From assembly GCA_029213065.1 (NCBI GenBank), contig JARGPH010000001.1:186001-250000 (forward strand): a stretch of DNA of 64,000 nt, read 5' to 3'. How positions within the stretch are numbered: position 1 is the stretch's first letter; each line of letters begins with the position of its first letter. Made by a program: the position numbers and the translations under genes. Source of the DNA: Verrucomicrobiales bacterium. Its GTDB lineage: Bacteria > Verrucomicrobiota > Verrucomicrobiia > Verrucomicrobiales > DEV007. The notes beneath the pieces were generated by a model. The model made no database searches. It saw nothing but the letters and a program-made list of their open reading frames with translations, and had not been told where the DNA came from. Shown here in pieces: positions 31,597 to 40,974 of this stretch.

Positions 31597-33855
31597 TTGC
31601 CTGATAAAATTCCATCATCTGACGGATCGCTATCCCCTGTCCAATCCACAGGCGGAAATGTTTTTGGCGTCCCCGCAGGGAATCCCGGTGCGAAGCCGGC
31701 TTCAGGTCCTTCGACCGGCCACCATCTTGCTCCGATCCCGGGCCAACCGACGAAACCCGGCATCCCGGACTGGAATCCGATTTTAGACGAACTTCCCTAC
31801 GGCCTCGCGGTTTTCAGTCCCGAGCAGCAGCTTCTCCACGAGAACAGCACCTTTCGCGATCTACTCGGATACGGAATTCAGGAAAAAGGTGGCATCGAGT
31901 CCTGGCTTCGGGCACTGTCCACCGACGCAGCGCACGCATCCAAATTGATTGAGACGTGGCGTGAATACTTATGGCGAAATCAACTCACCCAGGTCTTTTC
32001 CCTGAAGTCCTCCAATCAGAAAATAAGAGAGATCGAGTTCCGGTCTTCACTTCTTCCGGATGGCGGTATCACGCTTACGATTCAGGATGTAACGGAAAAG
32101 CATCGCACGCAGGAAAATCTGCATCAGGGAAAACTCAAGTTCCGTGCTCTTTTCTCTCATTCCGAAACCGGAATCGTCCTAGTTGACCGGACCGGTCGAA
32201 TCATCGAGGCGAATCCCGCTTTCCTCAAATTGTCAGGTCAGGCGCTTTCGCAGCTTCGACTGAACACCCTCGCCGGTCTTCTCCATCCCCGCGATGCTGA
32301 AGCGCTGGAGCAGGAGGAAGCGGCACTTTTTAAATCCATCGACTCGGGGAACGGTGCAGGGCAGGTCGTTTCCAGAGAGATCTGGCTCCGCGCAAAAGAG
32401 AACGAGGTAAAAACGAAGCTCACCTTCTGCCCCGTCGGTGAAGATGCTCCGTCGCGGTCCATGGGGATCTATCTCTTTGAAAAACCTTCGACCTCAAACG
32501 AGGTCAACGAGCAGCTCGCGACGAAGCTCCAGGCGCTCGCGGTGAAGGCACAGGCCTTGATTGCTTCGGTTCCCGACTTGATCATCCTGATCAACCCGGA
32601 CCTCTCCATTTCAGACTACGCTCCACCACCGAAGCCATGGGAGGAAATTTCCCCCGACAAATCGTGGCGGAACAAGCTCATCACAGAGGTCTGGCCGGCT
32701 CTGGGCAATCTCGTTGAAGAGTCCCTTCCCAAAGTGCTTAAGAATGGCGAGAACGTTTGTGCCGAGATCCGCGGTGAGGACGGCGATCTTTTCTCTTTCG
32801 AGGTGAATCTCGCCGCCTGCGGAAACAGCCAGACCATCGCAGTGATTCGCAATCAGTCGGAACTGCGCCGCCTGCGTGAGGGTTCCGGCTGGCTCGAGGA
32901 AGCGTTTGCGAAAGCCCGCGACGCCGTCCTCATCTGCGATGCGACGGGACGAATTCAGCACACCAACGTATCGGGGGCTGCGCTCGTGGGAGTCTCGTGT
33001 GAAGAGCTGGTCGGAAAACGACTTGGGAGCCTCTATCGCTCGGAATCCGATCAGGGAGCCGGTTTCCAACGGAAAATTGCAATCGGCCTCTCCCACTCGA
33101 ACACCTGGGAATGTGAGGAACCGATCGTGACTTCCGAGGGAGTTACCGTCAAATGCACGAGCGAATTTCAACTGATCCGAAACGGCACAAAAGAGACGCT
33201 CCTCATGGTGACGATTCGCACCGGAAGCTCCACCTCAACTGCGGCAGCGCCTGCTCAGCCAGCAGGACTCAGCGACCCCGCCCTTTCCCGGGAAACCACA
33301 CAGCATTCCTTTCGCAATCAGCTCCAGCTGGTCACCAGTCTCTTTAACCTTGAGCCGCAGGGAGTCGCCGCACGCGACGCCTTCATCAAATGGCAGATCC
33401 GGCTTCGCTCGATGGCTCAGGCGCTGCCCTACGGAGCGGGTGCCGATATCGCGGTGGTTCCCCTGATTCGCCACATCGCCGACGAGGTTTGCTCACTCAC
33501 CGGACAGGGCCCCGGACGCCGCGAAGTGATCGTCACCGGTCTGGAATCCATCTCGTTGCCGGCTCAAACCGCGACGCCCTTCAGCCTTCTCATGGGCGAG
33601 CTGGTTCGCTTGATCGTGTGCGAAGGCCAGCGTGGCCCCGGCCCCGAACTCTACCTCAATCTTCACGAGGCAGGCGACTCGTTCCGCCTCGTCGTACGAC
33701 CGGGAACGAATCGCCGCTTCGCCTTTATCGACCGCGAAAGCGAAATCGAAACGCTGGAGATTTTGACCGAGCAAATTCAGGGCCGCCTCGATGTTCCCGC
33801 AGACGCTGATCCGTCGGAACAATGGGAATTACTCGTTCCTCTTCAGCCGAATTAG
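31597..33855 (+). CDS. multi-PAS sensor with degenerate HisKA_2-type kinase domain
   Basis: A 752-residue soluble protein. It starts at a TTG: an in-frame stop lies at 31555-31557, and no ATG occurs in frame until about residue 289. A Pro/Gly-rich N-terminus is followed by several PAS-like domains (LPYGLAVFSPEQQLLHEN; SETGIVLVDRTGRIIEANPAFLKLSG; ARDAVLICDATGRIQHTNVSG). The dimerisation helix HSFRNQLQLVTSLF (His570) matches the HisKA_2 pattern H-x-x-x-N-x-L-Q. In the ATPase domain the expected ELxxNA reads ELVRLIV, and the DxGxG box reads VVRPGTNRR, so ATP binding is doubtful. It may sense and modulate the hybrid kinase encoded next. Confidence 0.7.
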   Translation: MPDKIPSSDGSLSPVQSTGGNVFGVPAGNPGAKPASGPSTGHHLAPIPGQPTKPGIPDWNPILDELPYGLAVFSPEQQLLHENSTFRDLLGYGIQEKGGIESWLRALSTDAAHASKLIETWREYLWRNQLTQVFSLKSSNQKIREIEFRSSLLPDGGITLTIQDVTEKHRTQENLHQGKLKFRALFSHSETGIVLVDRTGRIIEANPAFLKLSGQALSQLRLNTLAGLLHPRDAEALEQEEAALFKSIDSGNGAGQVVSREIWLRAKENEVKTKLTFCPVGEDAPSRSMGIYLFEKPSTSNEVNEQLATKLQALAVKAQALIASVPDLIILINPDLSISDYAPPPKPWEEISPDKSWRNKLITEVWPALGNLVEESLPKVLKNGENVCAEIRGEDGDLFSFEVNLAACGNSQTIAVIRNQSELRRLREGSGWLEEAFAKARDAVLICDATGRIQHTNVSGAALVGVSCEELVGKRLGSLYRSESDQGAGFQRKIAIGLSHSNTWECEEPIVTSEGVTVKCTSEFQLIRNGTKETLLMVTIRTGSSTSTAAAPAQPAGLSDPALSRETTQHSFRNQLQLVTSLFNLEPQGVAARDAFIKWQIRLRSMAQALPYGAGADIAVVPLIRHIADEVCSLTGQGPGRREVIVTGLESISLPAQTATPFSLLMGELVRLIVCEGQRGPGPELYLNLHEAGDSFRLVVRPGTNRRFAFIDRESEIETLEILTEQIQGRLDVPADADPSEQWELLVPLQPN

Positions 33856-33957
33856 GGAGCTGTCAGGCATAGAACGCCTCTAAGCGTCTATTCTTCGAAA
33901 ATCTTCCTGTCATTGGTGAAAGATTGACTCTACCGTTTTAGTTTTTATAAAGCCTCT

Positions 33958-36552
33958 ATGGATGATTTGCCTGCCAACCGATTGCGTTTACTCATCGTCG
34001 AAAACGATCGAGTGACAGCGCGTGATCTCGAGGCAACCCTGCGTCGCCGCGGCTTCATCGTCGAGGGAATCGCCTATTCAGCCGAGCAGGCCAAAGATCT
34101 CGTAAAAGAGAAAGCCCCTGACTTCGTGCTCCTCGATATCCAACTCGGTGAGGGCAACGAAGGAATCGAGCTCGCCAAGTCGATTCGCGAAGAATACGAC
34201 GTACCCGCTGTTTTCATCACCGGGTATTCCGAGGATGCCCTTTATGAAAAAGCACGCGTCGCACGGCCTGCTGCTTTTATCCGCAAACCTTTTACCGACG
34301 CGGAACTCTCCGCCTGCCTCGAAGCGGTCGTGGAACGCAGCCTCGCCGAGGAACGTCTCAAGCTGCGGCTCCCCGGACTGGAGGCGGTCTCAGACCATTT
34401 ACCACAGGCAGTCGTCGCCTCCGATGTCGCCGGAAATGTGGTTTATCTGAATCATTCCGCCGAAACCCTCACCGGCTGGACAAAGGCCGATGCCTTCAGT
34501 GCCGAGCTGACGAAAGTGCTACCGCTGGAGATTCGGGAAACTCCTGACAGCAACGATAACGACAACAAGGAGGAATCGGACCTCGGGGAAGAGCGTCTCA
34601 AGCCGCGCAAGGCCACCCTTACCACAAAGACGGGCGAGAGACGCGAAATCGAAGAGCGCTCCGCCCCGATTAAGACAGGCGATGGCGAAATGATAGGGCT
34701 CGTCACCGTCATTGCGCCCTCCGCAGTTCATTCCCTTGCCGCGACCGCCCCCGACGATCTGCCGGGAGACGGAGATTTCATCATGCCGGAGGATCCAAGA
34801 CCGCTTCCCCCGGCACGAAGCGAAGCGCTCAAAAAGATCGCCTCGATTGCGAACGATCCCCAGTTCAAACAACTCATCAGGCAGCGCAAACCGGAAGAGG
34901 AAGCCAAGACAACTCGCGAAGCATCGTCTCACCCGAGCCCTCCCCCGCTTCCCACGGAATCGAAGCAGGCTCCTGACGTCACTTCCGTTTTCTCGGCGTC
35001 GAGCTCTCCGCTCATTGATGAAGTCGGCGACCCCCTCATGGTCATCAGCGAGGACGGGGCTATCACTTACGCCAACTCGGAGGCCGCAGCCGAATTTGGA
35101 AAGGGCGAGCCCCTCGTGGGAACGCGCTTCTGGGAACACTTCGGTGAAGACGAAGACGAGCGATACGACGCGCATTTCAATAAACCTCTCGTGACGGGAC
35201 GTCGGCACCGCTTCGATTTTCACGACACGAGCCGTGGAAAATGGTTCGAAATCCGCGCCTACCGGACACGCGGCGGAGTCCTCACTCTTTTCACCGACAC
35301 CACCGCAACCCGCCTCGAAGCCGCCGAAGCGGTTCGCCAGCAACGCCTCGAAGGCCTCGGCCTTCTCGCACGGGGATTTGCACACGACTTTAACAATCAC
35401 CTCACAACCCTCACCGGAAACATCAGCCTTGCCCGCGAGCGCCGCCCCGACGACGGCGAACTGCAGGACATGTTGAAAGAGGCGCAAACCGCGGCAACGA
35501 GAGCGACCGGGCTCGTCCAGCAGCTCATGACCTTTGCGAGAGGCGGACGCCCCATCCGCGAGCGCACCAGAGTGACTGACCTGATCCGCCGCGTCCTCAC
35601 CGAACACCGGATTCAGCATCCCGAGATTCGTTACCAGTTTCAGGGTGCCGAGACCGACCTCGTCGCCAACGTCGATCCATCGCAGGTGACACGCCTCATC
35701 GAGAACCTCGTTTCCAACTCCGCCGCCTCGATGACCAACGGAGGTGTCCTCATCGTGCGTTGCTCCAAAGTGACACCCGAGGAAGTCATGGCGATACGTG
35801 GCTCCCACACCCCCGCCGACGAGGACCACCTCCTCATCGAAGTGATCGACACCGGCCACGGCATGAGCGATGCAGACCTCGAATGCGTCTTCGAGCCCTA
35901 CTTCACAACGAGGAAGGAAAACAACGCCACCGGAATCGGCCTGACTGTCTGCGAGTCGATCGCAAAAGCCCACAGCGGCTTTATCCACCTGCAGTCCAAG
36001 GAAGGCAAAGGCACCATCGCCACCTTTTGCGCCCCGCTCGGTCGCGGCCCCGACTCCATGGGCGACGATCCCGATGCGCCGATCGCCTACCCGAATTTTG
36101 ACATTCCCAATCTCACTTCGAAGCCGCTTGTTCCGAAAGGCGAAGAACCGATCCTCGTGGGAACCCGCATTCTCATTCTCGAAGACGACGCCCCGATCCG
36201 GAGACTCATGGCAGCGACCCTGCGACGGGCCGGTCACGAAGTCGTCGAGACCAAAGAAGGACGCGAGACAATCGAAGTCTACCGCGAATCGATGGAGAAC
36301 AATTCCAAGTTCCACCTTCTCATCTGCGACCTCACGATCGAGAACGGAATGGGAGGCGTCGAAACGATGCGCCAGCTTGTGCAAATGGATCCCGAGATTC
36401 TCGCGATCGTCTCGAGTGGATACTCAGACGCACCGGCGATGTCCAGCCCCGCCAGCTTCGGCTTCCGCGGAGTCCTGCCAAAGCCCTACGCGCCAAGCGA
36501 GCTGCGTGCTGCCGTTCATCGCATGCTTTCGGCGCATCACATCATCCCGTAG
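33958..36552 (+). CDS. hybrid sensor histidine kinase: REC-PAS-PAS-HisKA-HATPase-REC
   Basis: An 864-residue cytoplasmic signalling protein. The N-terminal receiver has its phosphoacceptor at Asp60 (FVLLDIQLGEGNEG) and Lys in FIRKPF. Two PAS domains follow (about 140-260 and 345-465) with a charged linker between them. The dimerisation helix has His476 in ARGFAHDFNNHLTTLTGN, the NtrB-like HDFNN form. The ATPase domain has its N-box in ENLVSNSAASM and the G-boxes VIDTGHGM and ATGIGLT. A C-terminal receiver carries Asp791 (LLICDLTIENGMGG). No DNA-binding output domain or membrane span is seen. It follows the degenerate sensor by 102 bases and probably works with it. Confidence 0.9.
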   Translation: MDDLPANRLRLLIVENDRVTARDLEATLRRRGFIVEGIAYSAEQAKDLVKEKAPDFVLLDIQLGEGNEGIELAKSIREEYDVPAVFITGYSEDALYEKARVARPAAFIRKPFTDAELSACLEAVVERSLAEERLKLRLPGLEAVSDHLPQAVVASDVAGNVVYLNHSAETLTGWTKADAFSAELTKVLPLEIRETPDSNDNDNKEESDLGEERLKPRKATLTTKTGERREIEERSAPIKTGDGEMIGLVTVIAPSAVHSLAATAPDDLPGDGDFIMPEDPRPLPPARSEALKKIASIANDPQFKQLIRQRKPEEEAKTTREASSHPSPPPLPTESKQAPDVTSVFSASSSPLIDEVGDPLMVISEDGAITYANSEAAAEFGKGEPLVGTRFWEHFGEDEDERYDAHFNKPLVTGRRHRFDFHDTSRGKWFEIRAYRTRGGVLTLFTDTTATRLEAAEAVRQQRLEGLGLLARGFAHDFNNHLTTLTGNISLARERRPDDGELQDMLKEAQTAATRATGLVQQLMTFARGGRPIRERTRVTDLIRRVLTEHRIQHPEIRYQFQGAETDLVANVDPSQVTRLIENLVSNSAASMTNGGVLIVRCSKVTPEEVMAIRGSHTPADEDHLLIEVIDTGHGMSDADLECVFEPYFTTRKENNATGIGLTVCESIAKAHSGFIHLQSKEGKGTIATFCAPLGRGPDSMGDDPDAPIAYPNFDIPNLTSKPLVPKGEEPILVGTRILILEDDAPIRRLMAATLRRAGHEVVETKEGRETIEVYRESMENNSKFHLLICDLTIENGMGGVETMRQLVQMDPEILAIVSSGYSDAPAMSSPASFGFRGVLPKPYAPSELRAAVHRMLSAHHIIP

Positions 36553-37417: not shown

Positions 37418-39646
37418 TTACTCGCTTTTTGGTTCGGTCTTCTCCGGAGCGTCCTCAACGGGAGCCTCCGTGGCTGTTGCATCAGAGACTACCTCATCAG
37501 CAACAACCTCTTCAGTCGCATCAGGAGAAACTTCAGCCACCTCAGGCTCTGCCGCTTTTTCCGCTTCGACTTCCGGAGCCTTTTCCTTCGCAGCAGGTTC
37601 GCTCGCTTCTTCAGCTGGCACTTCCGCTTCAACGACCTCTTCCGTCGCAGGAACTTCTTCCGCCTTGGCCGATTCAGTTACCTCAGCCTTCGGAGCCCCC
37701 TCTGCGGGTGCCTCGGCTTCAGTTTTCACTTCCGCTTCCGCTTTGGTTTCCGCCGTAGCGTCACCTTCCGTTTTTGCTTCGCTTTTCACCTCCGCTTTGG
37801 CGACCTTCTTCTTCGCTGCCTTTTTCGCAGACTTCTTCGAGGCGGGTTGATCCGGTCTTGGACCTTTTCCGATGTGAAGTTTGGTGTCGGCAAATTCGAG
37901 GACATACCCTTCCGAAGTGAGCCAGCGAAGATTGCTGAGAACCTTCTTCGCCCCGTCGGTCAAGGGCACTTCCTCTTTCGGCGCAGCCTTATCGGCCTTG
38001 GGATCAGGCTTCGTAAAATCTTCGACCAGTGAATCGAGCATATCGACCACTTTGCGGCCCGGATTAGCGATCACGTAGTCGACAATCTTCTGAACTTCAG
38101 GACTGAGCGGGACTCCTGCGCTGATCGCGCGGGGACGAACCGATGAAACATGAAGCGCTTTTTTGCCGCGCTTGAAGAATCGCATGCCATGCTTTTCAAA
38201 CTCACGGCAGAGCGACTGAATCATCGGCAACGGGAAACCGCGACGAAGTTTTTCACTCTCCTGTTTCACGTATCCGAGGAGACCGGCGGAAAGGTCTTTT
38301 CCTGAGATATTACCGGGGACGAGAACTTCGCTGACTTCAGCAATCACCTCAGCGGAGAAATGCTCACGGAAATGTTGCGCGAGCTCTTCCTGAGACTTGA
38401 GCACGAGCTCTTCCACCTCCGGTGCAGAAGCCGCTTCCTCAGCAGGCTCTTCGGCGACAGCCTCCTCTGAATCAGCTTCGTCGCCGGCATCATCTGCCGG
38501 TGCCTCCTCCGGAGCTTCTGCGGTTGCCTCTTCGACGACTTCTTCAGCCGTTTCAGTTGCTGCCGCTTCGGTAGCTTCAGCACCTTCGGTCGTTTCCGCT
38601 GCCGCAGCCTCATCAGCCGCGATTTCAGCTTCGGCGGATTCAGCGCCTTCGCTTTCCGGAGCGGAATCTTCAGCGGCTTCTTCTGCGACCACTTCCTCTA
38701 CGACCTCCTCCTCACCCTTGAGGCGATAGTGACGCGCCTTGCTGACCTGTTCTTTCCACTTCTCAATCGTCTCCTCATCACTCTCCATTCGAATGCGGGA
38801 TTTCAGTCGCTCGATCGGCATGTTGGAAAATCGCTCCTGATGAAGGCGTGCGATGTTCTTCTGGTATTCGTGGTGGCTGGACGGCCCGAGCAAAGTCCCG
38901 CTCATGCCACAGACAGCAATGGCATTGAAGTTGCCTTTGGGGGCTTCCACTTCCACTTCTTCCACCGTGTAGTATTCTTTGATCGCCGGGCTGTTGAGGA
39001 CATGCGCTACGGCCTCCTCTTTGGTCAGCCAAAGGGATTTATCAGCAAGGCACTGGAACAGTTTCGCTTTTCCTGCCTCTGCTTTGAAATGGATATCGTA
39101 ACGCTCGCGCTCCTGAACAATCATCTTCGCCAGGTCGGAAACGGGGAAGGAGCGAAAAGTCTGTTTGATGTGACGAACCAGTCCCTCCACAGCGGGCTGC
39201 GAGGGTTCAAGTGACGCTGAAATACCTGCCGGCAATGGCTCGGGGCGATTTCTCTCGTAATCACGACCACCTCTGCGGTCGCCGCCACGTCTCTCACCGC
39301 CACGACGATCTCCGCCACCACGGCGATCCCCGCCGCCGCCATAGCCACCTCGCTGACCTCCACCACGGCGGTCGCCGCCACCTCCGTAGCCGCCTCGCTG
39401 GCCACCGCCACCTCCGCCATAACCACCACGACGGTCGCCTCCGCCACCTCGTCGATCATCTCCGCCACGACGATTTCCACCGCCACCACCTCGGCGGTCG
39501 CCACGGCCCCGTGATTTATCGCCTCCGTCGTCGTCGCGACCGAAACGCTTAGCGCTCGTCTTCGACTCATCTTGGCTTTTTTCCTGCGCCCAATCGGGCA
39601 TCAGATCTCGAGCTGAAAACTCCAGGGGGTTATCTCCGTCACTCAT
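37418..39646 (-). CDS. RGG-box, acidic-linker and KEA-rich-tail protein of unknown function
   Basis: A 742-residue protein of strikingly modular composition. The ATG at 39646 starts MSDGDNPLEFSARDLMPDW. Residues ~40-135 form a Gly/Arg-rich RGG region (repeated DRRGG, GYGGGG). A globular helical domain (~150-300) includes TFRSFPVSDLAKMIVQER and AVCGMSGTLLGPSSHHEYQ. A very acidic Glu/Ala linker follows (~300-415). A second helical domain (~415-570) includes GKKALHVSSVRPRAISAG and a winged-helix-like SNLRWLTSEGYVLEFADTKLH. The last ~170 residues are Lys- then Glu/Ala/Val-rich repeats. RGG boxes commonly bind RNA, so a nucleic-acid role is likely but inferred. It lies 35 bases downstream of hemL. 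No known family is recognised. Confidence 0.75.
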   Translation of the reverse strand: MSDGDNPLEFSARDLMPDWAQEKSQDESKTSAKRFGRDDDGGDKSRGRGDRRGGGGGNRRGGDDRRGGGGDRRGGYGGGGGGQRGGYGGGGDRRGGGQRGGYGGGGDRRGGGDRRGGERRGGDRRGGRDYERNRPEPLPAGISASLEPSQPAVEGLVRHIKQTFRSFPVSDLAKMIVQERERYDIHFKAEAGKAKLFQCLADKSLWLTKEEAVAHVLNSPAIKEYYTVEEVEVEAPKGNFNAIAVCGMSGTLLGPSSHHEYQKNIARLHQERFSNMPIERLKSRIRMESDEETIEKWKEQVSKARHYRLKGEEEVVEEVVAEEAAEDSAPESEGAESAEAEIAADEAAAAETTEGAEATEAAATETAEEVVEEATAEAPEEAPADDAGDEADSEEAVAEEPAEEAASAPEVEELVLKSQEELAQHFREHFSAEVIAEVSEVLVPGNISGKDLSAGLLGYVKQESEKLRRGFPLPMIQSLCREFEKHGMRFFKRGKKALHVSSVRPRAISAGVPLSPEVQKIVDYVIANPGRKVVDMLDSLVEDFTKPDPKADKAAPKEEVPLTDGAKKVLSNLRWLTSEGYVLEFADTKLHIGKGPRPDQPASKKSAKKAAKKKVAKAEVKSEAKTEGDATAETKAEAEVKTEAEAPAEGAPKAEVTESAKAEEVPATEEVVEAEVPAEEASEPAAKEKAPEVEAEKAAEPEVAEVSPDATEEVVADEVVSDATATEAPVEDAPEKTEPKSE

Positions 39647-39681
39647 CGTATTTCTTGGTAGGCTGTCGTGAGAGGTGAACC

Positions 39682-40974
39682 TCACTTAAAAATTTTCTTC
39701 AGGGCGTTACAGGTAACTTCCGTGGTTTTCTCCATATCATCCGCTGCATGCGCCATCGAGATGAACCCGGCCTCATACTGTGATGGGGCAAAATAAACAC
39801 CGCCATCCAGACAAGCCCAGAAAAATCGCGAGAACGCATCAAAGTCGGACTTCTTCACATCGTCCACATTTGTGATTTTGTCCTCCGTAAAGAAAAGACA
39901 AAACATCGAGCCAATACGGTTGAATGTGAGATCGCGACCGATCTCTTTCAAGGTTCCCCTGACACCATCCTCGAATGACTGGCCGATTTCTTCGAGCCGA
40001 TCCCATCCGTTTTGGCGATCCATCTCTTTCAACTGGGCAATCCCCGCAGCCATTGCGAGAGGATTCCCTGAAAGCGTTCCCGCCTGATAGACCGGACCGT
40101 CCGGCGCGAGGCAATCCATGATCTCAGCTTTGCCGCCGAAAGCCCCGACCGGCAAACCGCCGCCGATCACTTTTCCCATCGCTGTCAGATCGGGTGTCAC
40201 CCCGGTGCGCTCCTGAACGCCGCCTTTCGCGACGCGGAAACCGGTCATGACTTCGTCAAAAATCAGAACAGTGCCGTGTTTCGCGGTGATATCGCGCAAA
40301 AACTGCAAATAGCCATCCTCAGGGAAAACCAGCCCGGCATTTGCGGGAACCGGTTCCACGATGATCGCGGCGATCTCGTCGCCCATTTTTTCAAAAACCT
40401 CTTCAACCGCTGCGCGTCGATTAAAGGGAAGTGTGACCGTCAACTCAGCCAGTGCCTTCGGGACCCCGGCGCTGTCGGGAGTTCCGAGAGTAAGGGCCCC
40501 GCTGCCGGCGGCGACGAGGAGCGAATCAACGTGACCGTGATAACATCCTTCAAATTTAATGATCTTGTCACGGCCGGTATAACCGCGGGCGAGACGAATC
40601 GCGCTCATGGTCGCTTCGGTCCCGCTGCTGACCATACGCACCTTCTCAACCGAAGGCACGTAGTCGCGAATCAGCCTCGCGATCTCAATTTCGTGGCGAT
40701 TTGGAATCCCGAAACTGACGCCTTCCTTTGCCGCCTGAGTCACCGCATCAATCACCACAGTGGGAGCGTGTCCGAGAATGGCCGGGCCCCAGGTGCCCAC
40801 GTAATCGACCATTTCATTGCCATCGACGTCCCAAATACGGCTGCCTCTGGCACGCTGAACGAAGAACGGCTCTCCACCAACGCTTTTAAAAGCACGCACA
40901 GGGGAATTCACTCCTCCGGGAATCACTTCTTTTGCTGCGCGGAAAAGCTTCGATGATAAATCACGTTTGACCAT
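39682..40974 (-). CDS. hemL: glutamate-1-semialdehyde 2,1-aminomutase
   Basis: PLP enzyme making 5-aminolevulinate in the C5 haem pathway. Highly typical throughout: PGGVNSPVRAFKSVGG at the start, GSRIWDVDGNEMVDYVGTWGPAILGHA, SSGTEATMSAIRLARG, KFEGCYHGHVDS, FDEVMTGFR and the cofactor lysine at 268 in MGKVIGGGLPVGAFGG. The length of 430 residues is normal. Haem demand fits the many haem proteins in the window. It is divergent from the LysR gene and precedes the RGG-protein gene on the same strand. Confidence 0.97.
   Translation of the reverse strand: MVKRDLSSKLFRAAKEVIPGGVNSPVRAFKSVGGEPFFVQRARGSRIWDVDGNEMVDYVGTWGPAILGHAPTVVIDAVTQAAKEGVSFGIPNRHEIEIARLIRDYVPSVEKVRMVSSGTEATMSAIRLARGYTGRDKIIKFEGCYHGHVDSLLVAAGSGALTLGTPDSAGVPKALAELTVTLPFNRRAAVEEVFEKMGDEIAAIIVEPVPANAGLVFPEDGYLQFLRDITAKHGTVLIFDEVMTGFRVAKGGVQERTGVTPDLTAMGKVIGGGLPVGAFGGKAEIMDCLAPDGPVYQAGTLSGNPLAMAAGIAQLKEMDRQNGWDRLEEIGQSFEDGVRGTLKEIGRDLTFNRIGSMFCLFFTEDKITNVDDVKKSDFDAFSRFFWACLDGGVYFAPSQYEAGFISMAHAADDMEKTTEVTCNALKKIFK

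Follow-up and report, generated by a model that had tools for sequence, protein, structure and literature searches.

A 64,000-nucleotide stretch of DNA from a Verrucomicrobiales bacterium (GCA_029213065.1, contig JARGPH010000001.1, positions 186,001 to 250,000 of the forward strand; hereafter, the window) carries two neighboring genes that, judged by sequence, form a real, conserved, and selected pseudokinase-kinase pair. The first, P1 (31597-33855, + strand), encodes a PAS-rich pseudo-histidine-kinase, and the second, P2 (33958-36552, + strand), a double-receiver hybrid histidine kinase. Our best explanation, to which we give about an even chance, is that P1 is a PAS-sensing pseudokinase that regulates P2 through the N-terminal receiver of P2 (REC1), much as in the DivL-DivK-CckA system, but with the counterpart of DivK built into the kinase. 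The case is built from the domain make-up of the two proteins, the residues missing from the ATP site of P1, purifying selection, the persistence of the gene pair, and independent changes in P1 and REC1 beside an unchanged P2 core. As the pair stays together while P1 repeatedly loses catalytic parts, the comparison suggests that P1 survives as a regulator of P2 and not as an enzyme.

Both open reading frames lie where the initial annotation had placed them. P1 has 752 amino acids and a TTG start in the mechanical listing of frames, the stop codon being included in its coordinates. Its PAS domains give Pfam matches above cut-off. PAS1 (aa 63-173; 31783-32115, +) is matched by PAS_7, and PAS2 (aa 181-296; 32137-32484, +) by PAS, PAS_8, and sensory_box, with a core match at aa 181-242 and the outer limit set by inspection. 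A probable PAS3 (aa 305-420; 32509-32856, +) was delimited by inspection, without a Pfam boundary. For PAS4 (aa 430-545; 32884-33231, +), the matches are PAS_4, best at aa 439-494, and PAS_9 at aa 442-530; its outer limits were likewise drawn by inspection.

The transmitter-like region follows. Family comparison and profile alignment place HisKA_2-like DHp helices at aa 560-612 (33274-33432, +), and His570 (codon 33304-33306, +, by residue position check) lies in the H-box within QHSFRNQLQ, where HisKA_2 kinases carry their phosphoacceptor His. The "good HisKA_2 helix" first reported here holds up in family comparison, in which HisKA_2 is matched by 24 of 29 P1 transmitters and HWE_HK by 12 of 29 (one-by-one scan, E<=0.1), but not by single-sequence score, as the window's own match to HisKA_2 (PF07568; aa 569-608, E 0.057) reaches 14.0 bits against a cut-off of 22.3 and is sub-threshold. 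When a profile of the 29 P1 transmitters was aligned with seven intact HisKA_2 kinases by hhalign, the probability was 98.3% (E 1.6e-14, 174 columns) and the alignment covered most of the DHp and CA region, a likeness that exceeds chance. A HisKA_2/HWE histidine kinase is the probable ancestor of P1, and P1 itself is best classed, from its residues, as a descendant of the HisKA_2 kinases and not as a functional member.

The remainder of P1 is a degenerate ATPase-like domain (aa 613-752; 33433-33852, +, by alignment). Its N-box position reads GELVRLIVCE, with Leu for Asn, and its DxGxG position reads VVRPGTNRR, neither of which is the ATP site of a HisKA_2 kinase. These losses, noticed in the initial annotation for the window alone, recur in the genus: in an alignment with intact HisKA_2 kinases, all 30 P1 transmitters examined from the window's genus lack the N-box Asn and the G1 Asp, and in the same set the G2 Gly is replaced or missing. 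Since relatives share the degeneracy, assembly error was ruled out as its source. Such a domain would make self-phosphorylation of P1 impossible. An active kinase that binds ATP in some unusual way could appeal to the Glu of the N-box region, which is invariant in 29 P1s; with the canonical residues replaced in all 30 of these transmitters, and no Pfam match of P1 to HATPase_c at E<=1, we find this reading barely credible.

Structure prediction should be read with care here. AlphaFold modeling of the P1 transmitter from a two-sequence input returned a mean pLDDT of 45, which is low confidence, and the statement about the ATP site rests on sequence. A Foldseek search with this model gave 657 matches at E<=10 and 4 at E<=0.001, with TM-scores below 0.46 in the best 50, and with values such as these the matches count as agreement only. 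Among the best 50 of the 657, 49 are histidine kinases or kinase-like phosphotransferases and one is a pyruvate dehydrogenase kinase. The LOV-HK structure 5epv and EL346 (4r3a) are two of the first four matches of the low-confidence model, and the ChpT-type structures 4qpk, 4qpj, and 4fpp rank below 5epv. When solved structures were searched by profile, the three matches had E values of 0.49 or worse.

P2 has 864 amino acids (stop codon included in its coordinates) and the order receiver-PAS-PAS-HisKA-HATPase-receiver, with two Response_reg domains, PAS stretches, HisKA, and HATPase_c all above cut-off. REC1 (aa 10-124; 33985-34329, +; Response_reg match) contains Asp60 (codon 34135-34137, +, by residue position check). 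PAS matches define PASa (aa 140-253; 34375-34716, +) and PASb (aa 352-452; 35011-35313, +). By Pfam match and alignment, HisKA (aa 460-530; 35335-35547, +) carries His476 (codon 35383-35385), HATPase_c (aa 570-695; 35665-36042, +) carries Asn587 and Asp631-x-Gly633, and the C-terminal receiver REC2 (aa 737-858; 36166-36531, +) carries Asp791 (codon 36328-36330). The His, N-box Asn, DxGxG, and receiver Asp and Lys that define a hybrid histidine kinase are all present, and Asp60, His476, and Asp791 sit at their expected positions. The domain scan found no output domain in P2, and the picture first drawn of receivers at both ends, with Asp60 and Asp791 as their acceptor residues, is borne out. 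Neither protein has a match to Hpt (PF01627) at E<=1.

In the NCBIfam search, REC1 matched PhyR-family and PRK13435 models, which we take to point to the kind of receiver served by HisKA_2/HWE kinases; as part of our best explanation, REC1 is likely to be of that type. The same search also gave EspA/EspC of Myxococcus. In the closest relative, P2 (L001:7365-9960) is split into two overlapping frames, probably through a frameshift in the assembly or the gene. The gene after P2 in the window (37418-39685, - strand) has a 755-aa product that includes low-complexity stretches, some rich in Arg/Gly and others in Glu/Ala.

The initial annotation had tied its reading to co-occurrence of the two genes in other genomes, and such co-occurrence is what we find. 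In the window and at 61 fetched loci, the two genes share a strand, with P2 coming after P1; the gaps at those 61 loci are -181 to 150 bases (mechanical starts). At L056 and L057, the two genes stay together though none of six other tested window genes is nearby. Within the window's genus, P2 was found in 30 of 33 genomes and a P1 transmitter in 30 of 33; G024 (93% complete) and G002 (75%) have neither, and the other two absences (P1 in G003, P2 in G025) fall where a contig ends. Across the family, a P2-like gene was found in 67 of 74 genomes (E<=1e-60), many of these matches spanning the kinase half only, with REC1 too diverged for joining. Adjacency is not absolute: in G134, P1 and P2 are on separate contigs, each flanked by other genes, and four loci (L102, L105, L106, L108) have a P1-like gene and no P2 on the locus. 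No paper on the pair was found by title or abstract start in the open-access literature.

Some notes on recognition apply to these counts. The P1 profile made from the 29-sequence alignment A1 matched 46 of 386 genomes of the order; more decayed forms were missed by it and reached through P2. L140 and L144, which have no P1-profile match, were taken as P1 by position and by alignment with L139, L142, and L143. Among the outlying forms, the P1-like genes L105:6016-8196 and L108:4510-6678, from another family of the order, keep the His, have lost the ATP site, and adjoin a gene that resembles DNA primase by eye. The start of P1 looks receiver-like at L103, L104, L107, L110, and L139, by a weak Pfam match at L139 (E 0.0045) and by eye at the others.

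Between the window and L001, its closest relative (81% identical), YN00 gives dN 0.055 and dS 0.995 for the CA-like part, and dN 0.048 with a high or saturated dS for the DHp-like part. By these rates, the dead ATPase-like domain is under purifying selection, and decay confined to the window's genome is ruled out by the same comparison. Over the 29 P1 relatives, nine columns are invariant, including the first-helix residues Arg573, Gln575, Gln577, and Thr580; His570 is conserved at >=90% across alignment A1. In most of the window's genus, both His570 and Asn574 (the +4 position) are kept and constrained. Mean pairwise identity over 24 genus pairs is 57% for the DHp-like part of P1 and 43% for the CA-like part, with 56, 42, 48, and 27% for PAS1 to PAS4; the corresponding values in P2 are 82% for HisKA, 76% for HATPase, 81% for REC2, and 58% for REC1.

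One could propose that P1 is drifting toward a pseudogene and that operon inertia alone keeps the pair together, given that parts have been lost independently in several lineages, that the g16 form has no transmitter, and that L140 and L144 are hardly recognizable. Against this stand the dN/dS of the dead domain, which is well under 1, the invariant columns, and synteny across the whole family. Moreover, no internal stops were found within the P1 matches of one search, the order-wide A1 profile search giving two matches with one stop each. We therefore consider drift very unlikely; by sequence, P1 is alive as a gene.

The wider set of relatives shows how unevenly catalytic residues have been lost. 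Scoring the ATP site as lost when the N-box Asn or the G1 Asp is changed, the 70 aligned P1 transmitters divide into 7 that retain the His as well as the ATP site, 39 with the His but no ATP site, 10 with the ATP site but no His, and 14 with neither. In g23, g24, and part of g18, a site scored as lost is only mildly altered, the N-box being kept and the G1 Asp changed; g3 and L128 have a His one residue ahead of the expected site. His570 is thus kept in 46 of 70 and lost in 24, two genomes of the window's own genus (G023, G029) being among the latter; it is replaced at L056 and L057 and in several other genera. Of the seven complete P1s, two (L117 and L136) belong to the window's family and the other five to a different family of the order; among these five, L109, L111, and the distant L099 adjoin a P2-like gene. 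The complete state is probably ancestral, a reading that, for an unrooted tree, is taken from the outgroup. At the other extreme, three g16 genomes have in the place of P1 a gene whose only domains are PAS, and in L140 and L144 Pfam recognizes a transmitter barely or not at all.

P2 tells a different story. Its His476, Asn587, Asp631, Gly633, Asp791, and Lys842 are unchanged in all 70 rows with data (75 rows in total), and position 819 is Ser or Thr in 69 of 70. REC1 varies: Asp60 is kept in 52 of 69 rows and lost in 17. In g16, Pfam finds one receiver in P2, the C-terminal one, and the Asp, Thr, and Lys of REC1 are lost; in G058, where P1 was not found and a transposase-like ORF lies upstream, REC1 is recognized and keeps its Asp, with Thr and Lys lost. 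On a tree of the P2 core, several deep forks of which are weakly supported, the minimum number of changes is 5 for the His, 4 for the ATP site, and 6 for the REC1 Asp. L099 (branch length 10) was left out of this tree, L114, L122, and L146 have no P1 state, and the three g16 rows were scored as without both P1 functions. For comparison, PMC12632262 puts HisKA domains without the phosphoacceptor His at 0.9% and receivers without Asp at 2.0%. Here, 24 of 70 transmitters lack the His and 17 of 69 REC1s the Asp; HisKA_2 falls outside that sample, and the rows compared here are related to one another.

These losses bear directly on whether P1 handles phosphoryl groups. As a kinase-derived histidine phosphotransferase like ChpT or Spo0B, P1 would relay from His476 through Asp791 to His570 and on to a further receiver, either an outside regulator or Asp60 as feedback, with its PAS domains gating the relay. 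The absent ATP site and the constrained His570 and Asn574 in most of the genus are what such a protein would show; in the window's genome, HPTransfase is not matched at all and Hpt just twice, within open frames of 1246 and 1062 aa, Hpt is likewise without a match in 41 of the 74 family genomes, and the low-confidence P1 model does match 4qpk, 4qpj, and 4fpp, though below 5epv. In the 24 P1s without His570, a relay through P1 would be impossible, yet Asp791 is kept in 70 of 70. We regard this reading as possible but unlikely. P1 was also rejected as a member of the known phosphotransferase families: HPTransfase is matched by none of the 29 P1 transmitters (Pfam, E<=0.1), and where 7 of the 74 family genomes do match it in part, the matches lie away from the P1 places.

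The search for an output gave candidates only. The true output may, as first proposed, be encoded elsewhere: neither protein has an output domain, and what was found for the output itself is limited to candidate orphan regulators. In the small genome G059, 8 response-regulator loci were inspected of 14 receiver matches, and six adjoin a HisKA-bearing kinase. The regulators with no kinase within about 1.5 kb are an NtrC-type regulator, present in 61 of 74 family genomes, and an HTH_17-receiver protein, present in 63 of 74. Since G024, a genome without P1 and P2, carries both as well, we treat them as leads only. The HTH_17-receiver regulator of 189 aa (L172:1306-1872 in G059) is strikingly conserved, being 88% identical across genera to its counterpart in the window's genome (G000:C67:12824-13375), and the NtrC-type copy in the window's genome (G000:C1:96365-97696) has one in-frame TGA in the match.

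How closely are P1 and REC1 linked? None of the 13 rows that have a P1 ATP site has lost the REC1 Asp, versus 17 of the 53 rows without one; these are few independent events, and by independent pairs (5 supported) the association is not significant. Strict joint loss of the P1 His and the REC1 Asp was ruled out by exceptions in both directions. Seven rows have lost the REC1 Asp and keep the P1 His, six of them with the +4 Asn; the REC1 Asp is kept in seven rows with both P1 functions scored as lost. In 16 rows, the P1 His is lost and Asp60 is kept (three of these, in g3, have lost the Thr and Lys of REC1), which argues against simple P1-to-REC1 phosphotransfer there.

The same rows speak to a role for P1 as a phosphatase or phosphoryl sink for P2, docking on REC1 or REC2 and removing phosphoryl groups with Asn574 and His570. 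L056 and L057 have lost the His and the +4 Asn together, and the REC1 Asp as well. According to PMC12632262, the His is not essential for phosphatase activity in HisKA and HisKA_3 and contributes in HisKA, HisKA_2 not being covered. However, the +4 Asn is changed in 7 of 10 rows that keep the ATP site and have lost the His, L048 has Asp at +4 with its His kept, and Asp60 is gone from the seven His-bearing rows just described. Phosphatase activity is absent from DivL, the closest case that has been studied (PMC4211667), and on balance we judge this role improbable.

Evolutionary covariation offers a further view. After removal of the HisKA and HATPase signal, distances in the DHp-like and CA-like parts of P1 covary with REC1 (partial r 0.57 and 0.58, p 0.0005, 24 pairs) and not significantly with REC2 (0.02 and 0.14, 24 pairs), to which slow change of REC2 may contribute. 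This set holds 24 of the 29 P1 rows, with L032, L033, L041, L048, and L061 left out. PASa and PASb of P2 give values equal to those of REC1, and PAS2 of P1 gives weaker ones. The covariation thus appears to point to the input half of P2, not to REC1 alone.

Between the two options first offered for the pair, an allosteric or a phosphotransfer module, our comparison favors an allosteric role for P1, because several lineages have each shed its catalytic parts by a different route and yet retain the pair. That the His is lost in 24 of 70 with P2 residues untouched favors docking as the shared function. Its retention in the other 46 counts against a pure docking role, which does not need a His, and the constraint on His570 and Asn574 within the genus favors some phosphoryl chemistry in addition.

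In the regulatory mechanism we prefer, P1 would be a transmitter-based PAS sensor that lost its ATP site long ago and was kept as a docking and regulatory module. P2 would be the live enzyme, autophosphorylating on His476 and then passing the phosphoryl group to Asp791, and from there to an output. The two-helix DHp-like domain of P1 would dock on REC1, the kind of receiver that the HisKA_2 kinase originally served. Docking would be tuned by signals at the PAS domains of P1, and perhaps by the state of Asp60, and would shift P2 between kinase and phosphatase, so that regulation runs from P1 to P2. As His570 and Asn574 are kept in the window's species, the mechanism there may include an exchange of phosphoryl groups between His570 and Asp60 that is fed by P2.

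A broader proposal can be made more tentatively, as we hold it somewhat less probable than its opposite: by family-wide parallel conversion, the input module formed by P1 and REC1 may have changed from phosphotransfer to an allosteric switch in which phosphorylation is optional, through losses that differ between lineages (ATP site, His, receiver Asp), with the catalytic residues of the hybrid kinase kept. If so, lineages that have lost all three would switch by binding alone. One gene pair holds intact, half-dead, fully dead, and transmitter-less P1s beside a catalytically unchanged kinase, and natural P1 variants, if swapped, make the role of a transmitter fold without catalysis directly testable.

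Known systems share parts of this arrangement. The HisKA_2/HWE kinases (LOV-HK, EL346) are the best kinase class for P1 by sequence and profile, and P1 differs from them in having lost the ATP site. Spo0B combines a kinase-derived DHp and a retained His with a degenerate CA domain. ChpT, of the HPTransfase family (PF10090), is similar, its CA domain being called functionally degenerated in PMC9981736, and P1 resembles both in these respects. Unlike them, P1 gives no PF10090 match, carries PAS sensors, and has relatives that lost the His. Osp and FixT, as described in PMC9430884, are single-domain receivers that inhibit kinases, with no phosphorylation of the receiver observed, and so give a precedent for REC1 forms without Asp; Osp and FixT are, however, separate proteins without a pseudokinase partner. 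P2 shares PAS-HisKA-HATPase-REC with the CckA hybrid kinases and aligns with the best NCBIfam CckA model over these domains, but it has an extra N-terminal receiver and its 218.4 bits fall far below the curated cut-off of 1000.

DivL is the pseudo-histidine-kinase studied in most detail in the literature covered, and the DivL-DivK-CckA system of Caulobacter is built like P1-P2: a PAS-bearing pseudokinase that retains the transmitter fold is joined, by way of a receiver, to a hybrid kinase of the CckA type. In P1-P2, the pseudokinase would bind this receiver. DivL has neither kinase nor phosphatase activity and binds DivK~P (PMC4211667), and in Rhodobacterales the loss of DivK goes with a degenerate and then a short DivL without the histidine kinase region (PMC9430884). 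There are differences as well. DivL lost its His (Tyr550), whereas His570 is present in the window, and most P1s lost the ATP site and kept the His; the DHp of P1 is HisKA_2/HWE-like, unlike that of DivL. Finally, DivK is a separate protein, whereas in P2 the receiver is the N-terminus of the kinase itself.
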